36,639 nt of DNA from an uncultured Campylobacterales bacterium (lineage in GTDB: Bacteria; Campylobacterota; Campylobacteria; Campylobacterales; CACVAW01). Made by a program: the position numbers and the translations under genes. Positions 2-36,639 of the stretch are shown in pieces (the first letter of the stretch is position 1; each line of letters starts with the position of its first letter). The stretch lies in assembly GCA_902727925.1 (NCBI GenBank), contig CACVAW010000020.1, positions 1 through 36,639 of the forward strand. Reading direction: 5' to 3'. The notes beneath the pieces were generated by a model. It ran no database searches and was not told the DNA's origin. It saw only the letters and a list, made by a program, of their open reading frames with translations.

Positions 2-3000
2 CAAGAACTAAAAAAAAGAATAAACAAAAGAAAACAATACGAAAACAAAAAAGAACAAGAAGCAAAACAACAACAAGCCCAAGAAAGAAGGACAGAACAA
101 GAATATAAAGAATACCAAAAAGAAATGGTAAAAAAATACCCAAGTATGTCCAAAGAGAAAAAAGAACAACTACTAGCCGAATATAACCAAAACCAAAAAC
201 TATACCAAGAACACTTAGCACGTCAAAATAGACAAGCCCAACAACAAAAGAGTAGACAAGAACAACAAAGAAGACAAAATTATCAAAATAAGCAACAACA
301 ACAAAAAGCCATGCAAACATATGATAGACTAGAACAAGCAAAAAAATCAAAAAGACCAGAAAAAGAAATAGCAAAAATAGAAAGACAGTACCAAAAAGAG
401 TTAAGAACACACTCTAAAAGTCCATTTAAAAAAACACAAAGATTAGAGTTTGGACAAAAAGAGATAGCAAAAGCAGCAAAAAAAATAGGAGTATCAGAAG
501 AGGGGTTAAACACATATATAACAAAACTAAGAAAAAGAGAAAGTTCAGATAACCAATTTGCAAGAAGATCAGGAAGTCAATACTGGGGATACTGGCAGAT
601 GGGGAAAGGTGCTAGAACAGATGGTGGGTATAGAGGTAGTAATGCAAATGCTTACATGCAAAGTAAAAGTACTCAATTACGGACTTTTTTAAATTACACT
701 GTGAGACAAGCAAAATCTCTAAAGAACAGAAACATATCAACAAAAAATGAAGCACATTTTCTTGGAGTACTAGCAGCAGGACACCTAAAAGGAATAGGTG
801 GAGCTGTAAAGATGCTTAAAGGTCAAGATAATGCAGATGCATTAGGAACTAAAACTAGTGAATATTATAAAATGATTCATAGTGCAGTAAATTCTGAAAA
901 ATCTAATAACCCTGGGGTAATAGCATACAACAAAGGAGTACAAGCATACGTACCAACTTCAAAAGATAGTGTAAATGATGGAAAATACCTAGAATCTAGA
1001 GTATTCTCAAAAACATCACAAGCCCAAAGATTTATAAAAGCAAAATATCCAGAATTAAAATATAAAATAGACTCAGAATATTATGAAAAGACTGGAAAAC
1101 TAGGTGGATATGATCCAAAAACAGGAATAACAACATTTGATGACAAAATAACAAAATATGTAATCCACCATGAAGCAATAACAGCTAAACGTCATAAAGA
1201 AGGTCAAGACTACAGTGAAGAAGCCGTAGCAAAAGAGCTTTATCAAAGAGCAGAAGAACTAAGACTAAATCCATACGAAATAAGAGATTCACAAGATTAT
1301 GTAAAAACTAAAAGATACCTACAAAAAGGTCGTGACGCAGAAATACAAGAGTTAGCAAAACTAACAGGAACAGCAGCACAAAAAGGTTGGATAGGAGATA
1401 CAAGAAGAGTACTAAAAGAGTGGAATGCAAAATATGCACTAGCTGGAGAGTGGGCAGCAGAACAATTAGGGTTTAAAGATGGCTTTCATACTCCAGAAGA
1501 AGAAAAGTATTTTGGATATGTACTTCAAAATATAGAAGACAAAAGAGACAAAAGAAGTAAAAGTGGACTTAGTCTGGAGAGGTTAGCTCAGAGGGAAGCT
1601 TTAGAAAAAAAAGGAGAAGCTGCAGAACAAGAGTATACACAGGCAAAAGGTGTTGTGCAAACTATGTCAGCTATTGGTAGTGTTGTAAAGTCTACAGCTA
1701 ATACTATTGTTGATAGTGCGAAGCATTATGAAGAGTGGACAAGAGAAGGTATTATCTCAGGGGTACTTGCTCCAGAAAACCTTGTTGGTGGAGGTATTGT
1801 AGCTAGGGTTGGAATGACAAGTATAAAAAAAGCTGCTCTTACCAGTACTGTTGTTGATATAGCAGCAGCTTCTGCAATTGAAGGAGGGGCTGCTGAGAAA
1901 AGAGGGAGAAGTGGAGTTGTAGCATCAATTGGTGTGGCAACAGGTTCAGCTCTTATTGGTGGCACAACAGGTGGTGCTGTTGCTGGGTATAATAAAGTTT
2001 CTGGTAGAGGTAATAGAATTACTATAGACAATACTATCAATAAGATAGATGACAAAGACAATCCTTTAAGTCCAGCTGAAAAACAACTTGTATCTGAACT
2101 TACTCAAGATGCTGTTAATACTAGTGATAATAGTATTAGTATGGATTCTGTTAGAAGGGCTACTCAAAACTCTATAAAACCTGATATTAATCAAGATGAA
2201 GAAGAAAGTTCATCTAACCTTGATACTCTTGAATCTGATACTTCTACTTCTTTTATTCCTCAAACCTTGGATAATACTGATAATGTCGTTCCCATTAAAC
2301 AATCAATAACCACTCAGCAACAACAAGCAAGACAACAGGAACAAGCAGCAATAACTTCAGAATATAACTTTATGGAAGTTAGCAACCCAGCATATAATCC
2401 TCTACCAACAAAAGAAGAGTTTGGTTTTGAGAGTATACCTCTTAAGGATAGTGAGTTAACAATACTAGATCCAAATAAAAACACTGATACAACAAATCCT
2501 CTTAGGATATCTAATCCCATAAATGATCCATTACCTAATAATGGGAATCAAACAAAAGATTTTATGAGGATAGAAAATCCAGCTAAAAATTTGGTAGACT
2601 CAGATGCACAAGTAAAAACTGAAAATAAACCTACTCAAGAACCTACCCAGACTCAACAGCAACAAGCTAAACCTCCTAGAAATTTAGATGAAGCTCAGAA
2701 AAGACAACTTGAGCAAGCAAAAGATGCTTCAAATAAGGTAACGTTTAATTTAAAAAAAACAGATGCAATAAAAGAAATAGAGAGTTCTACACATTGGCAT
2801 GGTAACAAACATAGAGGGAAAACCAAAACAGAGTTAAGAGATAGAGCTAGAACTGCTAAGATATCAGGCATAGGTAAAAATACAGGTTCTCTTACTGCAG
2901 GGGTGGATAGCTATAATGAACGAATTGCTTATGCAAAAGCTACTGGACATAAAAAAAGATTGACAAATGCGAGAGAGGCTAAAAGAGATTATTTAGACCA

Positions 3001-5446
3001 ACCTTTGGTTAGAAGTAGTTTTAAAAGTAATAATGAATTATATAAAGCATACTTACTTGTTAGAAATAGTGATGAATTTAAAGCTCAATATAATGAAGGT
3101 AATTCTAATACTATAATAACTTCAGTACCTATAAGCAAAAATATTAAATATCAATCTATAGATCAATTTGGAAATGAACATAATGTAAATAGAGTTATAG
3201 GTGTTTTTCATAGAAATATAGACGGTACAGTATCACCAGTTACCATTTATCCAGCTTATGGGCAAAGAGCGAAGCTGAGAAATTTAACAAAGAAAACTCC
3301 TGCTCAACAGCAACAAGCGAAAACTTCTATTGATAGTCAAGCTCAACAAAGGCAAGCAAGACAAGCTAACCCTAAAACTGATCCTACTAGTCCAGAGTTT
3401 GATCCAGAAGAATTTGTAAAAGGTAGAGCAAGCAAAAAACATGATGAATTAAGAGAAGTTTTAGATGATAGAAAACAAGTTTTAAAAAAAGGTTCAGGCG
3501 GACGGTCAAATAGAGTAACAGAATCAGACCCTCATCTTAAGCTAACAAGAGTTATGAATGAAGCAAGAGAAAGAGAAGCTGGTAAAAAACATTGGCAAAA
3601 AGAGTTAAATGAAAGATTTAATTCAGATGGTACACTAAGAGATGACTATGGTACATCAAGTCCAACTACAACACATAAAGACCGAGTTGATTCACTTTTA
3701 AGTGGAGAAAATTCAGTAAAAGATGAGTCAATTCAAACTAATAAGCCACCTACTAAAAAAACAGTTGATTATAATCAACCAGCTAAAGGGTTGAGTAGTA
3801 GTGTTGGAAGTAGAGGACTGGGTAATAACCCTCTAGCAGATATGAAAGATCTAAAGAATAGACAAAAAGGATTAGATAATATTTTGTCTTCTAAAAATAA
3901 GAAGAATAAAGATGAATCAGGTTCTGTAGGCGCTCAATTTATAGGAAACTCTTGGAAAGATAATCTAAAACAACAAACAAGAGATACAGAAGCTAGAATA
4001 AATCAACAAGGTTTAGATAGTGCAAGAAATAATCCACCTAAAAGCCAAGAAGTTGATAGACCTTTAACATCTGAGGATAGTAGGGGAATAGATAGACAAT
4101 TCTTACTTGGGGATAGCGAGAATCAAGTAAAAACTTCAGTACAACAGCAACAAGCTAAATCAGGTGTAAACGACTATAGAGTTAGTCAAAAGGTAAATGA
4201 ATTTGGTAAAAAACATGGAATAGAAGATTCATTATCTTCACATAGTAATGATTATATATATTCAAGTAAAAATGGAGTAGAAGGTTTTTATAAAGCATCA
4301 GATGATACCGATCCAATTATATTATATCACGGTACTCAAGACAAGTCGTTTAAGAGCTTAAATGATTTAGATTCAAGTTCTAATAGTCCTTTTTTTCTAA
4401 CAAAAGATAAAGAAGTTGCAAAAAGATATTCTTCAGATAATCATTATACACATCCTTCTCAAAGTGAACAAACTGGAAACACTTTAAAAGGTGTATTGGT
4501 AGTTAAAAATACAGAAGCTGTTAGTATTCATAATGCTGAAGGTGGAAGCCAACAAGATATAAATATGAATAATTTCTTAAATTCAGAATATAATCAGTCG
4601 ATTAACGTAAATCAAAATGTCCGTAACATTGGTATAGGTGAAACTACAAATATTACTATTACGCCAAATACACATAAAGATAATTTTTCTATAATAGGTA
4701 TAGGTGACTATAGAGAAAATGGTACAAGACAAAAACTTTATCCAATACAACAGCAACAAGCTAAGGCAGGATTAAATGATTATAGAAATAATGATAATGA
4801 GGGGGTAAGTGAACTAAAAAGTTATCCTCAGTATTTGATTGGGTCAAATACTCCAAACATATCGCAAGGAAGAAATAGGAATCAGTCTTTAATTGTTGAA
4901 TTTAAAAAAGATGAAAAGAGAACTAATGATGATACATATAACGTAAAATCTGGTGATAAAATCATAGGACAGGTTTCATTAAAAAGAAAAAATGATAAAA
5001 GAGTTCATTTAGCAGGTCTTGGGATTGACGATGATTATCGTCATACAGGAGCAGCACAAGCAACTGCTCATAAAGTAAAAAAATATTTAAAAGACAAAGG
5101 TGCAAAGTCTTTATCTATACAAGCTATACCAATGGCAGGAAGTTACGATAAAAATCAAATAGATTCTAACTCTTTAGTAAAACATTATTTAAAAAATTAC
5201 TATGATGTTGAAAATATAGATGAACTAAAGGATGTGAATAAAACTGATCAACAAAAAGTAGATGGGGTTGTGATAACAGGAAGCTTTATATCAGAAGGGA
5301 ATACTATTTTTGGTCACTTAAAAAATGAACGACAAAAATCTAATCAAGATCCTATTAAATCAGCTGCTTTTTTAGATTTTATGAAAGAGGAAGGAATAAG
5401 TTTGGGTAGTAATCATGGTTTTACAGACTATCGAGATGAGACTTAA
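2..5446 (+). CDS. Giant modular polyvalent-type protein (5' partial): lysozyme-like, ADP-ribosyltransferase-like and GNAT-like domains
   Basis: The frame is open from base 2, so the true start lies outside the window; residue numbers here count from the Met at 125. Residues 1-100 are Q/K/E-rich and probably coiled coil. Residues 110-256 look like a lysozyme or lytic transglycosylase: RESSDN with candidate catalytic E139, GYWQMG at 155-160, then AGHLKGIGGA at 218-227. Residues 300-480 are unassigned. Residues 510-625 are hydrophobic with a glycine zipper (GSALIGGTTGGAVAGY). Residues 870-1050 form a basic unassigned domain. Residues 1396-1515 resemble an ADP-ribosyltransferase (LYHGT, then PFFLTKDKEVAKRYS). 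Residues 1586-1700 resemble a GNAT acetyltransferase (GDKIIGQVSL, then YRHTGAAQA). QQQQA(K/R) linkers separate several modules. This layout matches the polyvalent proteins of phages and conjugative elements, which carry effectors into a recipient cell; that role is inferred. There are no phage structural genes nearby to confirm it. Confidence 0.75.
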   Translation, partial: QELKKRINKRKQYENKKEQEAKQQQAQERRTEQEYKEYQKEMVKKYPSMSKEKKEQLLAEYNQNQKLYQEHLARQNRQAQQQKSRQEQQRRQNYQNKQQQQKAMQTYDRLEQAKKSKRPEKEIAKIERQYQKELRTHSKSPFKKTQRLEFGQKEIAKAAKKIGVSEEGLNTYITKLRKRESSDNQFARRSGSQYWGYWQMGKGARTDGGYRGSNANAYMQSKSTQLRTFLNYTVRQAKSLKNRNISTKNEAHFLGVLAAGHLKGIGGAVKMLKGQDNADALGTKTSEYYKMIHSAVNSEKSNNPGVIAYNKGVQAYVPTSKDSVNDGKYLESRVFSKTSQAQRFIKAKYPELKYKIDSEYYEKTGKLGGYDPKTGITTFDDKITKYVIHHEAITAKRHKEGQDYSEEAVAKELYQRAEELRLNPYEIRDSQDYVKTKRYLQKGRDAEIQELAKLTGTAAQKGWIGDTRRVLKEWNAKYALAGEWAAEQLGFKDGFHTPEEEKYFGYVLQNIEDKRDKRSKSGLSLERLAQREALEKKGEAAEQEYTQAKGVVQTMSAIGSVVKSTANTIVDSAKHYEEWTREGIISGVLAPENLVGGGIVARVGMTSIKKAALTSTVVDIAAASAIEGGAAEKRGRSGVVASIGVATGSALIGGTTGGAVAGYNKVSGRGNRITIDNTINKIDDKDNPLSPAEKQLVSELTQDAVNTSDNSISMDSVRRATQNSIKPDINQDEEESSSNLDTLESDTSTSFIPQTLDNTDNVVPIKQSITTQQQQARQQEQAAITSEYNFMEVSNPAYNPLPTKEEFGFESIPLKDSELTILDPNKNTDTTNPLRISNPINDPLPNNGNQTKDFMRIENPAKNLVDSDAQVKTENKPTQEPTQTQQQQAKPPRNLDEAQKRQLEQAKDASNKVTFNLKKTDAIKEIESSTHWHGNKHRGKTKTELRDRARTAKISGIGKNTGSLTAGVDSYNERIAYAKATGHKKRLTNAREAKRDYLDQPLVRSSFKSNNELYKAYLLVRNSDEFKAQYNEGNSNTIITSVPISKNIKYQSIDQFGNEHNVNRVIGVFHRNIDGTVSPVTIYPAYGQRAKLRNLTKKTPAQQQQAKTSIDSQAQQRQARQANPKTDPTSPEFDPEEFVKGRASKKHDELREVLDDRKQVLKKGSGGRSNRVTESDPHLKLTRVMNEAREREAGKKHWQKELNERFNSDGTLRDDYGTSSPTTTHKDRVDSLLSGENSVKDESIQTNKPPTKKTVDYNQPAKGLSSSVGSRGLGNNPLADMKDLKNRQKGLDNILSSKNKKNKDESGSVGAQFIGNSWKDNLKQQTRDTEARINQQGLDSARNNPPKSQEVDRPLTSEDSRGIDRQFLLGDSENQVKTSVQQQQAKSGVNDYRVSQKVNEFGKKHGIEDSLSSHSNDYIYSSKNGVEGFYKASDDTDPIILYHGTQDKSFKSLNDLDSSSNSPFFLTKDKEVAKRYSSDNHYTHPSQSEQTGNTLKGVLVVKNTEAVSIHNAEGGSQQDINMNNFLNSEYNQSINVNQNVRNIGIGETTNITITPNTHKDNFSIIGIGDYRENGTRQKLYPIQQQQAKAGLNDYRNNDNEGVSELKSYPQYLIGSNTPNISQGRNRNQSLIVEFKKDEKRTNDDTYNVKSGDKIIGQVSLKRKNDKRVHLAGLGIDDDYRHTGAAQATAHKVKKYLKDKGAKSLSIQAIPMAGSYDKNQIDSNSLVKHYLKNYYDVENIDELKDVNKTDQQKVDGVVITGSFISEGNTIFGHLKNERQKSNQDPIKSAAFLDFMKEEGISLGSNHGFTDYRDET
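2315..4765 (+). repeat. Dispersed QQQQA(K/R) linker repeats inside the giant gene
   Basis: Five copies of a Gln-rich linker begin at 2315, 2654, 3305, 4142 and 4748. The last four share the identical 14-mer CAACAGCAACAAGC, followed by an in-frame Lys codon; the first is a CAG CAA CAA CAA GCA AGA variant. They fall between the recognisable modules. The last two are followed by similar residues (SGVNDYR and AGLNDYR). A related KQQQAQ occurs near base 63. Repeated short identities at module borders fit recombination-driven domain shuffling, although repeat-prone Gln codons alone could give part of the pattern. Confidence 0.75.
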
Positions 5447-6561: not shown

Positions 6562-7370
6562 TTGTTGACGAAAAAACTTACAAAAATATTCTTATAGAAT
6601 CTAAAAAGTTTGCTTCAAATGCAAAATACGGAACTCATCTCAGTAGTTTTGGTAGTGAGGGGATAGACTTTCGTGAGCTTAGTGAGTATAACGAGGGTGA
6701 TGATATAAGAAAGATTCATTGGCCGACAAGTGCAAAAAAACAGTCTTTGTATGTGAAAAAGTTTGATGAGAGTAAGAATCTTAGTATTCATATAATATCT
6801 CTTCTTAGTGGAAGTTTGTATTTCGGGAGTGATATATTAAAGCAAGAGCTACTTGCCCGTATAGTTGCTATTCTTTCGTATGCTACTATTTTTCAAAAAG
6901 ATACTTTAAATAGTGCTATTTTTATAGATGAAGTAAAACATAAGTTTAAAAATATCAAGAAATCTTCTTCTGTGACAAGTATAATAAAACAGATACTAGA
7001 ATATGAGGTAATAGGTTCAAGTATAGACTATGAAGCTCTTAGTAAATATATAAGCAGTATAAAAAAAAGATCAGTTATATTTCTTGTTGGAGACTTCATG
7101 AGTGATATTTCAGCGCTTAAGGTATCAAGTAAACATGATGTAAGAGCTATTGTCGTAAGAGATAAGTTTGAAGAAAATCCAAAGAACTTGAATAATATAT
7201 CATTCATTAATCCAGAGACTAATGAAATAGTCAGTTCGTTACCTTTACAAAATTATTCTAATATGGTAGAATGTCAAAATCATATTATACGCCAAAGTTT
7301 TTATAAATATAGAATTAAGTCTACACAATTAAATTCACACAATTTAAATAAAAAGATTAAGTTTATATAG
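6558..7370 (+). CDS. DUF58 domain protein, VWA-like
   Basis: This is a DUF58 protein, the regular partner of MoxR in this operon type. The signature is visible: GIDFRELSEYNEGDDIRKIHW, followed by a Lys/Phe motif (YVKKFDE). In most homologues the next strand carries an Asp-x-Ser-x-Ser metal site. Here the corresponding segment reads ISLLSGSLYFGS, so the metal-binding Asp appears to be missing. The C-terminal part (about residues 170-270) is poorly conserved, with a basic tail. It overlaps moxR by four bases, implying translational coupling. Its molecular activity is not established; a scaffold for the MoxR/VWA complex is a reasonable inference. Confidence 0.85.
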   Translation: MIVDEKTYKNILIESKKFASNAKYGTHLSSFGSEGIDFRELSEYNEGDDIRKIHWPTSAKKQSLYVKKFDESKNLSIHIISLLSGSLYFGSDILKQELLARIVAILSYATIFQKDTLNSAIFIDEVKHKFKNIKKSSSVTSIIKQILEYEVIGSSIDYEALSKYISSIKKRSVIFLVGDFMSDISALKVSSKHDVRAIVVRDKFEENPKNLNNISFINPETNEIVSSLPLQNYSNMVECQNHIIRQSFYKYRIKSTQLNSHNLNKKIKFI

Positions 7371-7392
7371 CTTTAATAAAATAGAGGTTTTT

Positions 7393-7758
7393 TTGGAAAA
7401 TTTAGAAGATATTGATATTCTTATGCATACAGGTAGTAACTTTTATATATTTATTATTCTGTTAATTATATTTAGTGTTTTAGCATTGATATTAGTTTTT
7501 ATAATAACTAAGTTTATTATAAGTGCTAAGTCTAACCCTAAGAAAAAAGCTTATGATAAAATTAAGAAATTGGATCTTGAAGATTCAAAACAAGCTTCTT
7601 ATAGGCTTACAAAGTATGCTACATATTTTGAAGATAATCCATATAAAGATCAACTACTTATTCAAATAGAACAATATAAATATCATAAAGAAGATATCCC
7701 ATTTGATGAGGAATCTTTAACTATTATTAGAAGGTTTACAAATAGTTGCAAAATCTGA
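7393..7758 (+). CDS. Small single-pass membrane protein of the moxR operon (DUF4381-like position)
   Basis: This 121-residue protein has one strong transmembrane segment (about residues 17-44, FYIFIILLIIF onward) followed by a basic, then charged cytoplasmic region. It occupies the slot where DUF4381-type proteins are usually found, between DUF58 and the BatA-like gene, and its size and topology fit, but I cannot confirm the family by eye. The TTG start at 7393 follows AGAGG at 7383-7387. An ATG at 7423 would remove ten residues. The 3' end overlaps the next gene by 13 bases. It probably anchors or couples the MoxR/VWA complex at the membrane. Confidence 0.7.
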   Translation: MENLEDIDILMHTGSNFYIFIILLIIFSVLALILVFIITKFIISAKSNPKKKAYDKIKKLDLEDSKQASYRLTKYATYFEDNPYKDQLLIQIEQYKYHKEDIPFDEESLTIIRRFTNSCKI

Positions 7759-8627
7759 GTTTTGAGTATCCTTATGCATTTTTAATTCTTATAGTTTTTG
7801 TCATATGTGACTTCTTTTTTAAAAAGCAGTTGTCGCTTTTATACTTTCCTTTTCTTCAAACCTCCCAGCTTAAAAAAAGCAAGAAAAACATATTTAAAAT
7901 CATCTTTAAATATCTAAGTATAATAGCTCTTGTCACAGCACTTGCTTCACCTATAACAAAAACAGAAATTTCAAATATCAAAAAAGATGGATATGCAATA
8001 TCATTATTAATAGATGCTAGTGGTTCTATGCAAAGACCTATCTCAAGAGTTCAGAGTAGGTTTGACGTATCAAAAGAGATTCTTATAGAGTTTATTAAAA
8101 ATAGATTAAATGACAAAATAGCTCTTGTGGTATTTGGTGGGTATTCTTATATAGCATCTCCACTTAGTTATGATAAAGTATCTTTAAGTGATATAGCATC
8201 TCGTATGACTCCTGGAATTGCAGGAGAAAATACTTCTATATATGATGGGCTTTTTACAAGTATTAAGACACTTAAAAACTCCAAAGCCAAATCAAAAATG
8301 ATAATACTTCTTACTGATGGTAGAAATACTGTTACTTCAGTGCCTCAAAATGTAATAATAAAATTGGCCAAGAAATATAATATCAAAATATATACCGTAG
8401 GTATATCAGATGAAGTTGACGTTTCTATACTCAAAAATATTGCTTTTAGTACTGGAGGTAAGTTTTTTCTAGCTCAAAATAAAACTCAACTTAAAAATAT
8501 ATATGAAACTATAGATAAACTAGAAAAGAGTGAGATAGAACAAAATAAATATTCATTAACAAAGTATTATTATCAATACCCTTTGGGATTATCTTTTCTC
8601 TCTATAGTATCATCTTTGTTTTTCTAG
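7746..8627 (+). CDS. BatA-like membrane protein with VWA domain
   Basis: This is an aerotolerance BatA-type protein. Two transmembrane segments sit near residues 8-25 and 51-70, followed by a von Willebrand A domain. The metal-ion-dependent adhesion site is intact: D90-A-S-G-S94, a downstream TS in GENTSIYDG, and LLTDGRN. A last hydrophobic segment (YPLGLSFLSIVSSLFF) closes the protein. The only plausible start is TTG at 7746, with AGAAGG about 11 bases upstream. The operon stops here: no second VWA gene (BatB), TPR (BatC) or BatD follows, as they often do elsewhere. It is the likely MoxR client. Confidence 0.85.
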   Translation: MQNLSFEYPYAFLILIVFVICDFFFKKQLSLLYFPFLQTSQLKKSKKNIFKIIFKYLSIIALVTALASPITKTEISNIKKDGYAISLLIDASGSMQRPISRVQSRFDVSKEILIEFIKNRLNDKIALVVFGGYSYIASPLSYDKVSLSDIASRMTPGIAGENTSIYDGLFTSIKTLKNSKAKSKMIILLTDGRNTVTSVPQNVIIKLAKKYNIKIYTVGISDEVDVSILKNIAFSTGGKFFLAQNKTQLKNIYETIDKLEKSEIEQNKYSLTKYYYQYPLGLSFLSIVSSLFF

Positions 8628-8664
8628 TTAAGTTCGCTTAATAGGCTCATAATAAAGATTTTGA

Positions 8665-8670
8665 TATAAT
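8665..8670 (+). promoter_or_regulatory. Candidate -10 box of glnA
   Basis: A TATAAT 33 bases upstream of the glnA ATG is preceded by TTTTGA, giving an extended TTTTGATATAAT pattern common in Campylobacterota. The ribosome binding site AAAGGA is at 8692-8697. There is no clear NtrC or sigma-54 site. Confidence 0.5.
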
Positions 8671-8702
8671 TTCATAAACTTTAAAAAATTCAAAGGAAAA
8701 AA

Positions 8703-10133
8703 ATGGGTAAATTCGTTAGTGATATAGAAGATTTCTTTAAATTTTGTGATAAGAATGACGTAAGATTTGTGGACTTTAGGTTTACAGATATCAAAGGCGT
8801 ATGGCATCATCTTACATATAATTACAAAGCTGTTAACAAAGAACTATTAGATAATGGAATGCCTTTTGATGGTAGTAGTGTAGATGCTTGGCAACCAATA
8901 AATAAGTCAGATATGATATTAAAGCCTGATATTGAGACTGCATTTCTTGATCCATTTACGGCTGATTCTACTATTATTGTTATTTGTGATGCTTTTGATA
9001 TATATAAGGGTGAATTATATGAAAAATGTCCAAGAAGTATAGCTAAGAAAGCACTTATTCATCTTGAGTCTACTGGTCTTGGTGATTCAGCATTTTTTGG
9101 TCCGGAGAATGAATTTTTTATATTTGATGATGTTCAAATAAGAGATGATATAAATTCTGCTTTTTATAGAGTTGATTCAAGTGAAGGTGAATGGACTGAT
9201 AGAAAGAGATTTGATGATGATATAAATACAGGACATCGTCCAAGAACAAAAGGTGGATATTTCCCAGTTGCACCAATTGATAGTATGGTTGATCTTCGTG
9301 CTGAAATGATGCAAGTACTTGAAGATGTTGGTCTTGAAGTAATGTTAGGACATCATGAAGTAGCACAAGCTCAAGGTGAAATAGGTATCAAATACGATAG
9401 TATGATCGAAGCTGCTGATAATGTTCAGAAGTATAAATATGTAGTTAAAATGATAGCTCACCTTAATGGTAAAACTGCTACTTTTATGCCAAAACCTCTT
9501 TATGGTGATAATGGTAATGGTATGCATGTACACCAATCAATTTGGAAAGATGGTAAAAATCTTTTTTATAAAGAGGGTGAATATGGAAATTTGAGTGATA
9601 CTGCTAGATGGTATTTAGGTGGAATATTCGCTCACGCAGGTAGTGTTGCATCATTTACAAATCCTACTACAAATTCATATAAGAGATTAATTCCTGGATT
9701 TGAAGCTCCTTCAATTCTTACATATTCTTCTCAAAATAGAAGTGCAAGTTGTAGAATTCCTTATGGTTCAGGTGAAGGTGCTACTAGACTTGAACTTAGA
9801 TTTCCTGATAGTACAGCGTGTCCTTATCTTGCTTTTGCTGCTATGCTTATGGCTGGACTTGATGGTGTTAAAAATAAAATGGAACCAGTAGGTCCAATGG
9901 ATGACGATTTGTTTAAATTAAGCTTAAATGAAATAAGAGAAAAAGGTATTCCTCAGCTTCCTCATACTCTAAGAGATGCCTTAGAGTCTATGATAAAAGA
10001 TAGAGATTATCTCAAACCTATAATGAGTGAATTATTCTTAGAGTCTTATAAAGATCATAAGTTTGAAACTCAAGTATTCCCAGATGAAGCTAGACCAACA
10101 GCATATGAGTTTAAAACTACATACTCTTGTTAA
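8703..10133 (+). CDS. glnA: Glutamine synthetase, type I
   Basis: It makes glutamine from glutamate, ammonia and ATP in the cytoplasm. All type I signatures are visible: DGSS (residues 57-60), [10 protein letters not shown] (133-142), the ATP-binding [10 protein letters not shown] (270-279), [18 protein letters not shown] and RLELRFPD. At 476 residues it has the usual length. The segment that carries the adenylylated Tyr in enterobacteria (NLYDLP) reads DDLFKLS here, with Phe404 (codon 9912-9914). The enzyme therefore cannot be adenylylated at that position, as reported for Helicobacter pylori. It is monocistronic, with its own promoter and strong hairpins after the stop. Confidence 0.97.
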
Positions 10134-10142
10134 TAAAAAGCA

Positions 10143-10175
10143 AATTTTCTTGTGAGTTTTACTCACAAGAAAATT
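10143..10175 (+). terminator. 15-bp hairpin after glnA
   Basis: A perfect inverted repeat: AATTTTCTTGTGAGT at 10143-10157, a three-base TTT loop, and ACTCACAAGAAAATT at 10161-10175. It begins nine bases after the glnA stop. The plus-strand flank has no long T run, so it may act as a transcript-stabilising 3' hairpin together with the next one. Confidence 0.7.
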
Positions 10176-10182
10176 AAATTCT

Positions 10183-10219
10183 AAAAATAATATTGAATTT
10201 AAGTTTCAATATTATTTTT
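10183..10219 (+). terminator. Second 15-bp hairpin, intrinsic terminator of glnA
   Basis: A second perfect 15-bp inverted repeat: AAAAATAATATTGAA at 10183-10197 and TTCAATATTATTTTT at 10205-10219, with a seven-base loop. It ends in five T residues, as an intrinsic terminator would, and separates glnA from accD. Confidence 0.7.
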
Positions 10220-10279
10220 GGAATTTTTATGTTCTATTAGAAGCTAAAGTAATTTAAAGAGTAAAAAAGGTATAAGTTA

Positions 10280-11119
10280 ATGAATTTTAGAACTTTATTT
10301 GGTAGAGATAAAAGATCAGCTGCAAGTTCAAGTGCTTGGATCAAATGTAAACAATGTAATGCTATGATGTATCATAAAGAAGTAAGAGATCAAGGTAATG
10401 TTTGTCCTAAATGTGATTTTCATATGAGAATTTCAGCTGATGATAGAATTAGACTTCTTAGTGATGAAAATACATTTGTTGAGTTTGATACGGAATTAAA
10501 ACCTACTGACCCTCTTAAATTTGTTGATTCAATATCTTATAAGAAAAGAATATCAAAGAATAATGCAAAAACTAAAAAGTTTTCATCTATAGTAAGTGGA
10601 GAGTGTCTTATTCATGGATTAGAAGTGCAGCTTGTAGTTATGGACTTTTCTTTTATGGGTGGAAGCCTTGGTTCAGTTGAGGGTGAAAAGATTCTTAGAG
10701 CTATTCATAGAGGTATAGAAAAAAAGAATCCTGTAATAATAGTAAGTGCGAGTGGTGGAGCAAGAATGCAAGAGAGTACATTCTCTCTTCTTCAAATGTC
10801 AAAAACATCAGCAGGACTTAAAAAACTTTCAGATAATGGCTTGCCTTATATCTCAGTTCTTACTGATCCTACTATGGGTGGAGTTAGTGCTTCTTTTGCT
10901 TGGCTTGGAGATATTATTATGGCTGAACCTGGTGCTTTAATAGGATTTGCTGGTCCAAGAGTTATTAAACAAACTATTGGTGCAGATCTCCCTGATGGAT
11001 TTCAAAGATCAGAGTTCTTACTTGAGCATGGGCTTATTGATATGATAGTACCAAGATTTGAAATGAAAGAAACTATTTCAGAATTATTAACACTTTTAGA
11101 TAATAAAAAAACAGCTTAA
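10280..11119 (+). CDS. accD: Acetyl-CoA carboxylase, carboxyltransferase subunit beta
   Basis: It works with AccA to transfer the carboxyl group from biotinylated AccB to acetyl-CoA, making malonyl-CoA for fatty acid synthesis. The N-terminal four-cysteine zinc ribbon is clear (C23, C26, C42, C45), followed by the carboxyltransferase fold: MDFSFMGGSLGSVEGEK, VSASGGARMQE, DPTMGGVSASFA and GFAGPRVI. At 279 residues it has the normal length. The ATG at 10280 follows AAAAAAGG by nine bases. ribA follows after 21 bases, so the two are probably co-transcribed. No accA is in the window. Confidence 0.96.
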   Translation: MNFRTLFGRDKRSAASSSAWIKCKQCNAMMYHKEVRDQGNVCPKCDFHMRISADDRIRLLSDENTFVEFDTELKPTDPLKFVDSISYKKRISKNNAKTKKFSSIVSGECLIHGLEVQLVVMDFSFMGGSLGSVEGEKILRAIHRGIEKKNPVIIVSASGGARMQESTFSLLQMSKTSAGLKKLSDNGLPYISVLTDPTMGGVSASFAWLGDIIMAEPGALIGFAGPRVIKQTIGADLPDGFQRSEFLLEHGLIDMIVPRFEMKETISELLTLLDNKKTA

Positions 11120-11140
11120 ACAAGCTTCTGTAGAATATTA

Positions 11141-11707
11141 ATGAATATAAAAATATCTAATAAGGCAAATTTGCCTACAAAATTTGGAGTTTTTAAAATA
11201 ATTTCTTTTAAAGAAAATGAAAAAGAACATTTGGCTCTATATAAAGAACCTAATACTAGTGTACCTGTTGTTAGAATTCATAGCGAATGTCTAACAGGTG
11301 ATGCTCTGAGTAGTCTTAAATGTGATTGTGGCGATCAACTTGATTATGCAATGAGTATTATAGCTAAATCAGGTGGATATATACTTTATCTTAGACAAGA
11401 AGGTCGAGGTATAGGCTTGTTTAATAAGGTTAATGCTTATAGCTTACAAGATAAGGGTATGGATACTATTGAGGCGAATTTAAAACTTGGATTTAAAGCT
11501 GACCTTAGGTCTTATGAGGTAGCTGAGTTTATGTTAGATTATTTTAATATAAAAGAAATAAAGCTACTAACAAACAATCCTAAAAAGATTAATTTTTCTA
11601 AAAAGATTATAGTAAAAGAAAGATTACCTATCCAAATTGATTCAAATAAATATAATGAAGATTATTTGAATGTTAAAAAAAATGAAATGGATCATCAATT
11701 ATTATGA
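11141..11707 (+). CDS. ribA: GTP cyclohydrolase II
   Basis: It opens the imidazole ring of GTP, the first committed step of riboflavin synthesis. The zinc ligands C50, C61 and C63 are in the RIHSEC...LKCDCGDQ motif. The catalytic loop RQEGRGIGL is intact, and the TNNPKKI signature ends the core. It is a stand-alone enzyme of 188 residues without a fused RibB domain. Campylobacterota often carry such a copy next to other metabolic genes. The start is ATG 11141. The end overlaps the next ATG by four bases (ATGA), so the DUF3817 gene is translationally coupled. Confidence 0.93.
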   Translation: MNIKISNKANLPTKFGVFKIISFKENEKEHLALYKEPNTSVPVVRIHSECLTGDALSSLKCDCGDQLDYAMSIIAKSGGYILYLRQEGRGIGLFNKVNAYSLQDKGMDTIEANLKLGFKADLRSYEVAEFMLDYFNIKEIKLLTNNPKKINFSKKIIVKERLPIQIDSNKYNEDYLNVKKNEMDHQLL

Positions 11708-11985
11708 ATATATTAAGTCAGTTTAGAATAGTTTCTTTGATAGAAGGAATTTCGTATCTTATCCTTTTGGGTTTTGCCATGCCTATGAAATATATATTTG
11801 ATAATGAAATTTTTGTTAAGTTCTTTGGTATGGCACATGGTGTTTTATTTGTACTTTTTATAGTTTTATTAGGAATTTGTTTTTTCTATTATAAGTTTAG
11901 TATTTTAAAAAGCATCAAAATATTCATTTATTCTTTAATCCCATTTGGGTTTATACTTATTGATAGGCTAGTTAAAAAAGCATAG
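11704..11985 (+). CDS. DUF3817 small integral membrane protein
   Basis: This 93-residue membrane protein has three predicted hydrophobic segments. It shows the DUF3817 signature: RIVSLIEGISYLILLGFAMPMKY at the start and FGMAHGVLFVLFIVLL in the middle. The family is widespread in bacteria and has no established function. It overlaps ribA by four bases and ends convergently with the restriction-modification gene about 50 bases away. A role in metabolite or flavin transport would be a guess. Confidence 0.85.
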   Translation: MNILSQFRIVSLIEGISYLILLGFAMPMKYIFDNEIFVKFFGMAHGVLFVLFIVLLGICFFYYKFSILKSIKIFIYSLIPFGFILIDRLVKKA

Positions 11986-12036
11986 TTATACGAGCTTATC
12001 AGAAGACTATAATTTTATAAGTTCAGTATATACAGC

Positions 12037-15000
12037 TCAAGCTTCCACTATCTTTATCTCTTCATCACTCAAGCCATAAAGTTTATAGACCATAGTATCT
12101 ATTTCATCATCTGTTTTATTGATTTGTGATTGTATCTCTAAAGCTTCTTTTTTGTCATTTTCAAAAAGTGCTTCCCAGTCGTTTTTGAAGTTTCGCTCTT
12201 CTAGTTTGTCGGCAAATTTTAGTTTTTTGGCTTTTTTATACACTTTTACAAACTCATCAAATTCTAATTCTTCAAAGCTTTGTAGTTTTTTAGGTATTTT
12301 TTCAAGTTCTAGTTCATTGATAAAGTTTTGTTTTGTTTTTTGTAGATTTTTGTTTAGTTCAAGCATTAAATCTGCTTTTTGAATAAATGGTTCTTGTTCA
12401 CCCAAGTTTTTAAGTTTTGGTAATGGAAAAGGTTCTAAGTATTTAGTTTTAAAATAATAATAACCACCACTAAATTCTGCACTAGTATTTTTAATAAAAA
12501 ACCACATTATAGAAGAGTTTAAAAGAGTTAGAAAATATTTATAGTTTTCTTGAATATTTTCTTTTTTTATTAAATTATATCCACCTGCATCACTATACAT
12601 TTTATGTTCATCAAATGTAAAACTAGGATAATTTTGTAATTGAGGTGTTATAATTTTCAAAGATTCTAATATTGTAATTTCTCTTGACCTATGAAGACTA
12701 TACCAATATTTCTCATTAGTTTTATATTTAATTTTTTTATTAACAAGGCTATCTTTAAAATTCAATAGATACTCATAAGCTAATGGATAATTATCTTTTA
12801 AGTATTCTTCTTCAAAGGGTTTTGTTTTATTATTTTCATTAAGGTAATGAGGGAAAATAATATAAATATTAGTTTGTAAAAAAGTATTTCTTTTAATATT
12901 TTTCCCTTTTAAAATGGGTTTTACAATTGAACTTTCTATTTTTACTTCTTTTTTCAAATCACTTGAATATCCAATAAAAACATTGTCGATAATATTACCC
13001 CTTAACATAAAAATACTATCTCCACAACTTACAATACCTTGGTAAATCCCTTCGAACACATCTTTTACTTTATATACTTGTTGATTTATTTTTTCTAAAA
13101 CTTTTGTAATATTTTGATTGGTTAAATTCCATTTATTAGAAGTTAATTTATCATAAGAAATACTATCATATTCAAAACCATCAAATATATCTTTTGGATT
13201 TATATGTTTGAATTTTAGTTCCTCATTATTGTGCGATAGAGTTATAATACAAGTATAAGTTGAAGCATCTTCAAAAACCATCTCACTACCAAAATGTAAC
13301 AAGTTTTCAACTGCTTTATGCTCAGATAAAAATCCCCTTATACCACTTCCAAAGTCTGATATTAGAAACTTGTGAGGTAAGATATATGACAATTTACCAC
13401 TTTTGTTTAACATATTGAAACTCATCTCTAAGAATAAAACATATAAGTCATATTTACCTGTTGCACTTTCAAACTTTTCTTCATATAGTTTTGATTCATC
13501 TTCATAATTACTTTTGAGTCCCTGCACTCTCACATACGGAGGATTTCCAGCTACTATATCAAAACTACCCTCTTCAAAAGGCATATCAAGTAAAGAGTTC
13601 GCACATAGTATCTTATCTGCTAAGCTTGTGAGTGATCTTCCTTTTTTAGCAGTTCTAAGCCACAAAGAAAGCTTTGCTATCTCCACTGCATCTTCGTTTA
13701 TATCTACCCCGTAGAGGTTGTTTTCTAGTACACTCTGCTCAACTGTATAAGAAGAGAACAAATCCCCCATAAGAGCTAAGTCGTTTTGTAGATTTGTGTG
13801 TTCTGTTATCAGGTAGTCTAAGGCTTGATTTAGAAATGCTCCACTACCACAAGCAGGGTCTAGGATTTTGAGTGCTAAAAGCCACTCTTTGTAAGTCTCA
13901 AGATTGTCTTTTGTTTGTTGTTCTATTTTGTTTAGTTTCTTTGGGTTTTTAGGGGCTACTACCTCTAGGATACTTAACTCTTCTCTTTTTTCAAGACATA
14001 TTTTGGCAAGTGTATTATCTACTATATACTTTGTGATATAAGAAGGTGTATAAAATACTCCATCTTTTTTTCTTTTGGTTTTTGTCTTGTCAAAGCTGAC
14101 ATTATCTATATTGGCTTGAAGTTCTTCTAGGTCTGTTAAGGACTGTTCAAATATATGACCTAAGATATTTACACCTACTTCACTCTCAAAGTCATAATCA
14201 CTTAACTTCTGAGCTTCTATATCTAAGATATCATTATCAATTATCAAGCTATCAAGTTCTTTGTCACTTGAGAATAAACCACCATTATATTTTGGTATTT
14301 TTAGTTTTTCATTTCCTTGATTGATAGCATTGAAGTAGAACTTATATATATCATAGAGTGTATACTCTGAGAATTTCTGGTTTGTAAAATCTTCTCGTAT
14401 TTCTTTAATTGTATTTGAAGTTAATAGTCCTCTATCTTCTGCAAATAGTATGAATATAATCCTATCACATAGCTTTTGAGTGAGTCTTAAGAGTTTTGAT
14501 TTTTCAATATGGGGATTGTTTTGAATTAAGTTTTGAAATAAGTTTGTTCTGAAGTTTGAAAAGTCTTTGTAAAGCTCTTTTGAGATTTGCTGTTCGTGGT
14601 TGTTTGACTTTGCTTTTAGTTGGAGTGGTATATTGTCTTTTATGCTCTCATAAGAAAGTAGTAAATGAAGTTTTTTAAAGTCTTCATAAGTAAGCTCAAA
14701 TAAACTAAACTTTTCATAAGAAGTACTTTTTTCTATGTAAAATCTAAGTTCATTGAAGTTTGAAATGATGACATATTTTGCATTTGAATTTTGATTAAGA
14801 TACCAAAATGCTTGTTCTTGTACATTGTCAAGGTTTTTGGTGTTTTGGGCTTTTAGTTCTATGACACCTACGACCTTATCATCTATATATATAACACCAT
14901 CTGCTTTTTTACTATCAGTTTCGTTTTTTTTCTCTCTTTCTAATGTGTAGTTCTCACTTTTGGTTTTAGAAATATATCCTAAACAATCTTCAAATATATC

Positions 15001-15165
15001 TTGTAAGAACCCATCTTGGTATTCCTCTTCTTTAAAGTCTTTTATACGGTCTATCTTCGCTAAGTATTTTTGATATTTAGGCCATCTTAAATCTATGAGG
15101 GTTTCGTCTTGTTTATTGATATAGTTTTGAAGTATTTTTTTATTGAATATTGGCGTATGGTTCAT
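12037..15165 (-). CDS. Type IIG restriction-modification enzyme (Eco57I-like, single polypeptide)
   Basis: One 1042-residue chain combines nuclease, methyltransferase and target recognition. The N-terminus has a PD-(D/E)xK site (D89, then E103-L-K105 in VIELKAQ). The adenine methyltransferase core has motif I LDPACGSGAF (about residue 435) and motif IV NPPYVRVQ (about 541). The C-terminal 400 residues resemble TaqI-like specificity domains, ending in a charged helical region. Such enzymes methylate DNA using SAM and cut a short distance from an asymmetric site. No separate methylase or specificity gene is nearby. It sits alone after dnaE with a weak ribosome binding site, typical of a horizontally gained defence cassette. 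The target sequence cannot be read by eye. Confidence 0.92.
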   Translation of the reverse strand: MNHTPIFNKKILQNYINKQDETLIDLRWPKYQKYLAKIDRIKDFKEEEYQDGFLQDIFEDCLGYISKTKSENYTLEREKKNETDSKKADGVIYIDDKVVGVIELKAQNTKNLDNVQEQAFWYLNQNSNAKYVIISNFNELRFYIEKSTSYEKFSLFELTYEDFKKLHLLLSYESIKDNIPLQLKAKSNNHEQQISKELYKDFSNFRTNLFQNLIQNNPHIEKSKLLRLTQKLCDRIIFILFAEDRGLLTSNTIKEIREDFTNQKFSEYTLYDIYKFYFNAINQGNEKLKIPKYNGGLFSSDKELDSLIIDNDILDIEAQKLSDYDFESEVGVNILGHIFEQSLTDLEELQANIDNVSFDKTKTKRKKDGVFYTPSYITKYIVDNTLAKICLEKREELSILEVVAPKNPKKLNKIEQQTKDNLETYKEWLLALKILDPACGSGAFLNQALDYLITEHTNLQNDLALMGDLFSSYTVEQSVLENNLYGVDINEDAVEIAKLSLWLRTAKKGRSLTSLADKILCANSLLDMPFEEGSFDIVAGNPPYVRVQGLKSNYEDESKLYEEKFESATGKYDLYVLFLEMSFNMLNKSGKLSYILPHKFLISDFGSGIRGFLSEHKAVENLLHFGSEMVFEDASTYTCIITLSHNNEELKFKHINPKDIFDGFEYDSISYDKLTSNKWNLTNQNITKVLEKINQQVYKVKDVFEGIYQGIVSCGDSIFMLRGNIIDNVFIGYSSDLKKEVKIESSIVKPILKGKNIKRNTFLQTNIYIIFPHYLNENNKTKPFEEEYLKDNYPLAYEYLLNFKDSLVNKKIKYKTNEKYWYSLHRSREITILESLKIITPQLQNYPSFTFDEHKMYSDAGGYNLIKKENIQENYKYFLTLLNSSIMWFFIKNTSAEFSGGYYYFKTKYLEPFPLPKLKNLGEQEPFIQKADLMLELNKNLQKTKQNFINELELEKIPKKLQSFEELEFDEFVKVYKKAKKLKFADKLEERNFKNDWEALFENDKKEALEIQSQINKTDDEIDTMVYKLYGLSDEEIKIVEA

Positions 15166-36416: not shown

Positions 36417-36639
36417 ATGTTAACACTACTATTACTGTTAGCAGGAGGAGCGTTAGCATCAGGATTTTTTGGTAAATTCCTAAGTCCAGATGGGATGGGC
36501 AAAGTAGGTGTTGAACAAGAAGAGCCAGAAATAAATGAAGAAGAATTATTATACAACATGGGAGACCAAGCATCAGAGTCACAAAACGATGATGTCTTTG
36601 CTAATACAGAGGAACTAAGTGAAGAAGAAAAACAAGACT
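36417..36639 (+). CDS. N-terminus of an unknown membrane/acidic protein (3' partial), possible second giant polyvalent-type gene
   Basis: The frame is open to the window end: 74 codons and one base. ATG 36417 is preceded by AGAGGGGG, the strongest ribosome binding site in the window. A hydrophobic, glycine-rich N-terminus (MLTLLLLLAGGALASGFFGKF) is followed by a strongly acidic region rich in Glu, Asn and Gln. No family is recognised. Codon choice (TTA, CTA, ACA, GGA, ATA) resembles the first 1.5 kb of the left-edge giant gene rather than its chromosomal neighbours. It could be the start of a homologous gene. The first segment could be a signal peptide or a membrane anchor. Confidence 0.6.
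   Translation, partial: MLTLLLLLAGGALASGFFGKFLSPDGMGKVGVEQEEPEINEEELLYNMGDQASESQNDDVFANTEELSEEEKQD

Follow-up and report, generated by a model that had tools for sequence, protein, structure and literature searches.

Polyvalent proteins are usually read as phage or plasmid cargo. The left edge of one contig from an uncultured Campylobacterales bacterium encodes a giant modular protein that resembles them, here called P0001, and raises the question of what such a protein does in a chromosome, among housekeeping genes. The window (the whole stretch of DNA analysed, 36,639 nucleotides) is the entire contig C20 of one fragmented draft genome (1.50 Mb, 69 contigs), which also holds a complete relative of P0001, the C2 paralogue. 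The features of the window are as follows.

2..5446, + strand: P0001, giant modular protein; 1814 codons, the 5′ end being lost at the left contig edge
2..292, + strand: conserved block A (aa 1-97), Q/K/E-rich and coil-like; 82% aa and 88% nt identity to the C2 paralogue
443..901, + strand: predicted lysozyme-like muralytic domain (aa 148-300); candidate catalytic Glu E180, codon 539-541
1481..2041, + strand: charged, then Gly-rich hydrophobic domain (aa 494-680), common to the C2 paralogue and the prophage protein L006
2060..2221, + strand: conserved block B (aa 687-740), NPLSPxExQLVSELTQDAxNTS...DEEESSS; 74% aa and 82% nt identity to the C2 paralogue over 53 codons
2654..2670, + strand: QQQQAK linker motif 1 (pattern match)
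3305..3321, + strand: QQQQAK linker motif 2 (pattern match)
4142..4158, + strand: QQQQAK linker motif 3, preceding the ART module, with a similar xGxNDYR after it
4310..4510, + strand: N-terminal half of an ART-PolyVal-like domain (aa 1437-1503), PF18760; H1443 and Y1476
4748..4764, + strand: QQQQAK linker motif 4, preceding the GNAT module, with a similar xGxNDYR after it
4898..5119, + strand: GNAT acetyltransferase domain (aa 1633-1706), PF00583; R1680xxG1683xA1685
36417..36639, + strand: 5′ end of another family copy, MLTLLLLLAGGALASGFFGKFL..., truncated by the right contig edge; aa identity with the N-terminus of the C2 paralogue about 70%

Domain architecture of P0001

P0001 is encoded in one uninterrupted frame, as the initial annotation had claimed, which is open from base 2 to a stop ending at 5446. 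We number window base 2 as residue 1, so that residue n of the initial annotation, counted from an ATG at base 125, becomes n + 41. That ATG, previously taken as the gene start, is internal, because the C2 paralogue has 221 residues ahead of the residue matching window base 2. The codon composition of P0001 is host-like (GC3 of 0.147 vs 0.147 for glnA), and on its 3′ side lie a MoxR-like gene, called as an ATPase from reading its sequence, and then a BatA-like gene.

Residues ~148-300 resemble the tail lysozymes of T4-like rhizobiophages and a cyanophage protein (tblastn, best E 1e-4), and a PHROG tail lysozyme family matches the same domain (4.9e-6). The catalytic candidate named earlier as E139 is E180 in the present numbering and is invariant in all seven aligned sequences, together with G196, Q199, G201, H261 and others. 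AlphaFold models most of this domain with confidence (pLDDT blocks of about 80-95, apart from one at 58), and a PDB search with the model ranks MltC, Slt, phiKZ gp144 and destabilase highest (E about 0.01-0.06, probability 0.99-1.0). The lytic assignment is thereby borne out, with lytic transglycosylase and lysozyme folds matched by the model. By predicted fold and aligned catalytic Glu, P0001 belongs to the lysozyme superfamily, and muralytic activity is predicted.

For the ART-like domain, PF18760 aligns to aa 1437-1503 with an E of 1.7e-5 and 26.0 bits, below the curated cut-off of 31.2, and covers model positions 5-62 of 140. Aligned against 24 viral ART sequences, P0001 has H1443 and Y1476 in place. 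The active site of the ART-PolyVal clade is H-Y-D (PMC5512222), and the strand-5 Asp was sought in the same alignment. Specifically, the near-invariant Asp column of YDGI, which we infer to be the catalytic strand-5 position of the clade, holds G1546, followed by E1547. The ART activity of P0001 is doubtful, because this Asp was not found. The AlphaFold model of the domain is poor (pLDDT 57), and a PDB search with it often returned members of the ART superfamily (KptA/Tpt1, diphtheria toxin, tankyrase), none of them significant. A combined ART and GNAT alignment for modelling (A5) was rejected, as MAFFT stretched the C-terminal half of the ART over the GNAT. The earlier ART call therefore stands only in part: the half-model match and the aligned His and Tyr speak for it, while the sub-cut-off score, the failure to find the Asp and the outcome of structure prediction speak against it. 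The C-terminal GNAT call holds in full, with PF00583 scoring 34.4 bits vs a curated cut-off of 20.7 and the (R/Q)xxGx(G/A) motif intact as R1680HTGAA. As far as sequence comparison can tell, the domain matches of P0001 are not chance patterns, the ART being the weakest of them.

The Gly-rich hydrophobic segment noted earlier is real and spans aa ~590-680; its Kyte-Doolittle maximum is 1.36 over 19 residues, below that of a confident transmembrane helix, and the N-terminus of the gene family is transmembrane-like, with a value of 1.92. The four QQQQAK joints are near-identical in codons and, in a whole-genome pattern search, confined to the P0001 gene. A Pfam scan of the middle regions gave no significant match.

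A constant scaffold with interchangeable modules

The C2 paralogue (L005 127-3762, minus strand) is a complete protein of 1211 aa with a hydrophobic N-terminus, and has block A, the hydrophobic domain and block B in common with P0001. Its muralytic domain, between blocks A and B, is an SLT domain (PF01464), of another family than that of P0001, and block B is followed, at the C-terminus, by a zeta toxin domain of which only the first half is present (PF06414, 27.2 bits vs a cut-off of 22.3). Comparison across the family shows that the scaffold, made up of a hydrophobic N-terminus, the two conserved blocks and the Gly-rich hydrophobic domain, is constant, and that two parts are interchangeable: the middle, lysozyme-like in P0001 vs SLT in the C2 paralogue, and the C-terminus, ART plus GNAT vs zeta kinase. 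The zeta domain ends at L005 1-127, a sequence also present at the ends of contigs C25 and C36; this is probably the end of an insertion sequence, with the start of an ORF, that cuts the zeta-toxin domain. In PHROG, the C2 paralogue matches internal virion proteins and lytic tail proteins, by virtue of the common SLT domain.

In addition to the 5′ end at the right edge of the window, a further 5′ end encoding MLTLLLLLAGGALASGFFGKFL... lies at C28 2-223. The window and contig C28 have their final 127 bases in common, as expected of a repeat collapsed during assembly. These two copies become similar about 20 bases ahead of the ATG; further upstream their flanks are unrelated, one being the grpE side and the other the side of a tRNA-methyltransferase-like gene. 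As read from the assembly, the gene family has at least three copies, because the C2 paralogue is accompanied by these two 5′ ends, one of which is possibly P0001's own. Housekeeping genes lie on every flank seen (P0001's own 5′ flank is off the contig). A match on C45 was rejected as a family member, being an ordinary MltD-like lytic transglycosylase by sequence and context. In the material examined, one draft genome, the occurrence of several copies at housekeeping loci, with predicted modules swapped between conserved blocks, appears to be new.

Outside the genome, the hydrophobic domain matches L006, a prophage giant protein of another Campylobacterales genome (G113), and both paralogues match the same part of it (43.9 bits for P0001, with a best of 24.3 among 100 shuffles, and 39.7 bits for the C2 paralogue). 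At the level of sequence similarity, this domain is shown to have prophage-protein ancestry. The L006 protein (7238-12478, 1746 aa) elsewhere matches PBECR nucleases (PBECR3, PBECR2-like) and, weakly, the N4 virion RNA polymerase. Viral contigs, queried with the entire protein, the ART, the lysozyme, the C2 N-terminus and block B, gave no close relative, nor did plasmids; the searched relatives and the phylum and order genome samples gave only the hydrophobic domain in the G113 prophage, plus marginal matches. The relatives compared are all from the same order and none from the source organism's own family. A contig scan by low-complexity patterns returned only SLT domains of Bacteroidota among the matches listed, and is uninformative on wider spread.

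ART-PolyVal occurs in 21 of 397 Campylobacterota genomes including the source genome (20 of 396 others). Of the initial annotation's overall picture, the polyvalent-type architecture of wall-cutting domain, hydrophobic segment and ART/GNAT modules stands, and the suggestion that the ART plus GNAT pair was unreported in Campylobacterota does not. The pair is not new, because Iyer et al. 2017 (PMC5512222), who described polyvalent proteins of phages and conjugative elements combining lysozyme, ART-PolyVal, GNAT and zeta domains, had already reported ART beside GNAT, and because L184, from another Campylobacterota genome, encodes ART, PBECR1 and GNAT in a single chain, downstream of an integrase-like ORF.

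Possible delivery and rival explanations

Phage or conjugation genes were found on none of the flanks seen of the family copies. Searches of the genome for VirB4 (PF03135), VipB (PF05943; T6SS sheath) and Terminase_6N (PF03237) gave no match, no other long Walker-type candidate was found, and PADLOC returned nothing. The genome does carry a mobilisable element, on C27 (L049 1089-4326) and C55 (L075 206-2543), that encodes MobC, a MobA/VirD2-type relaxase (PF03432) and a VirD4-type T4SS coupling protein (PF02534). The coupling proteins of C27 and C55 are 70% identical, a membrane-associated DnaJ-domain protein adjoins, and next to an integrase-like gene on C56 lies a truncated copy of the element's end. 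This gene set is predicted to be mobilisable rather than self-transmissible, because no VirB4 was matched. No giant gene adjoins the element.

Other long proteins were noted in the same genome. Contig C41 consists of a 1230-aa Q/N-rich protein (L062 136-3825) without a Pfam match, alone between two copies of one terminal sequence and perhaps within a mobile element. On C30, an RHS/YD-repeat protein of 1835 aa (L051 2008-7512) is encoded in this genome without a VipB (T6SS sheath) match, and on C22 a secreted protein of 3068 aa (L044 9303-18506) is possibly of filamentous haemagglutinin type. The window itself encodes, at 12037-15165 on the minus strand, a 1042-aa protein with a GNPPY motif that is probably a type II restriction-modification fusion, and contig C44 (L122) has a similar 997-aa ORF.

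The reading that we favour, and to which we give about an even chance, is that P0001 is a member of a small family of phage-type polyvalent effectors, present in several copies, which stands alone in the chromosome, has interchangeable modules and is delivered into another cell. Judging by how polyvalent and ejection proteins are known to behave, the protein would be exported or packaged and then delivered into another cell, where the muralytic domain would open the peptidoglycan locally and the hydrophobic domain would lodge in or cross the inner membrane. The GNAT, and perhaps the ART, could then act on cytoplasmic proteins of the recipient, while the cytoplasmic target of the C2 paralogue's zeta module would be wall precursors. 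The QQQQAK linkers may serve as flexible joints between modules. As vehicle, a helper T4SS or a virion of other origin may serve, or the protein may deliver itself after lysis. Against this reading, no delivery apparatus was matched by the VirB4, VipB and Terminase_6N searches, the ART is below its cut-off, its expected Asp was not found and its model is poor, and the Gly-rich segments are weaker than typical transmembrane helices. A variant that we consider rather unlikely is a phage-free chromosomal family in which one scaffold is reused at several loci and wall-cutting and killing modules are exchanged, making it a self-penetrating polymorphic toxin with its own muralytic and membrane-crossing parts.

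Alternatively, the proteins might serve a phage or satellite virion as ejection (pilot) proteins, the structural genes of that particle being missing from the bin, too divergent for the models to catch, or supplied by a helper; the hydrophobic N-terminus and muralytic domain would then form a trans-envelope conduit as in podovirus ejectosomes, with the C-terminal modules co-injected. The hydrophobic domain in common with the prophage giant L006 and the similarity of the muralytic domain to phage tail lysozymes point in this direction, as do the internal virion and lytic tail proteins among the PHROG matches of the C2 paralogue, but those matches depend on the common SLT domain. Moreover, Terminase_6N was not found in the genome, a limited comparison of genome ORFs with collected phage-bearing loci gave no obvious virion or other phage structural homologue, the viral contigs searched gave no relative, all flanks seen carry housekeeping genes, and several single-gene copies would be odd for a phage; we therefore place this explanation among the improbable ones. 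The integrated mobilisable element suggests another route, in which its relaxase, MobC and VirD4-type coupling proteins could pass polyvalent proteins through a helper T4SS. Conjugative elements are known to encode polyvalent proteins (PMC5512222), and the PF02534 coupling proteins accompany the PF03432 relaxase and MobC on C27 and C55; however, the genome yielded neither VirB4 by PF03135 nor another long Walker-type candidate, a set of MobC, relaxase and coupling protein without VirB4 is not self-transmissible, and no giant gene stands beside the element, which leaves cargo of type IV secretion or conjugation a slim prospect.

It is likewise quite unlikely that P0001 is a resident, membrane-anchored cell-wall enzyme built of phage parts, with the C-terminal ART, GNAT and zeta modules as decaying baggage. 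The intact muralytic domain with its invariant Glu, the half-degenerate ART and the truncation of the C2 zeta domain by an insertion sequence would fit such a history, but the long linkers and C-terminal modules still form one open frame of 1814 codons, the GNAT motif is intact, and the GC3 equals that of glnA. A genome in which several copies sit at housekeeping loci, with muralytic and effector modules swapped between conserved blocks, would illustrate a route from polyvalent protein to domesticated weapon or tool, and offers a clear test of whether the penetration part can do without a virion.

Comparison with known systems

Podovirus and N4-like ejection proteins (T7 gp16, N4 vRNAP; PMC8954989, PMC12633501) resemble P0001 in combining muralytic and hydrophobic domains, and the hydrophobic domain is common to L006, which is weakly N4 vRNAP-like in another part. 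Unlike these proteins, the present family has its effector modules at the C-terminus and no virion genes were found beside it. MuF and other polymorphic toxins (PMC5576092, PMC3482391) are alike in having a constant N-terminal part, a variable toxin-like C-terminus and several copies per genome, whereas in the present family no MuF, PAAR, RHS or filamentous carrier was recognised and the middle domain is swapped too. The hallmark of polymorphic toxins, a known trafficking domain with an adjacent immunity gene, is absent from P0001, with no carrier domain found by Pfam and no immunity gene beside the sole intact 3′ end seen. The Campylobacterota ART-PolyVal giants (for example L169, L171, L181, L184 and L185) likewise carry an ART module, in chains of some 700-5000 aa; the ones inspected combine it with LPD or PBECR domains and show no close similarity to P0001 beyond the ART half-domain.

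Polyvalent proteins (PMC5512222) differ from P0001 in lying in phage late-gene or conjugation loci, whereas here several single-gene copies stand among housekeeping genes, and no LPD, metallopeptidase or PBECR domain was found by the searches made. Like P0001, they are single, very long chains with several unrelated enzymatic domains, and the domains typical of the class are present in P0001 and the C2 paralogue (GNAT, lysozyme and zeta supported, ART below cut-off), here with a middle muralytic domain and a C-terminus that vary between copies.
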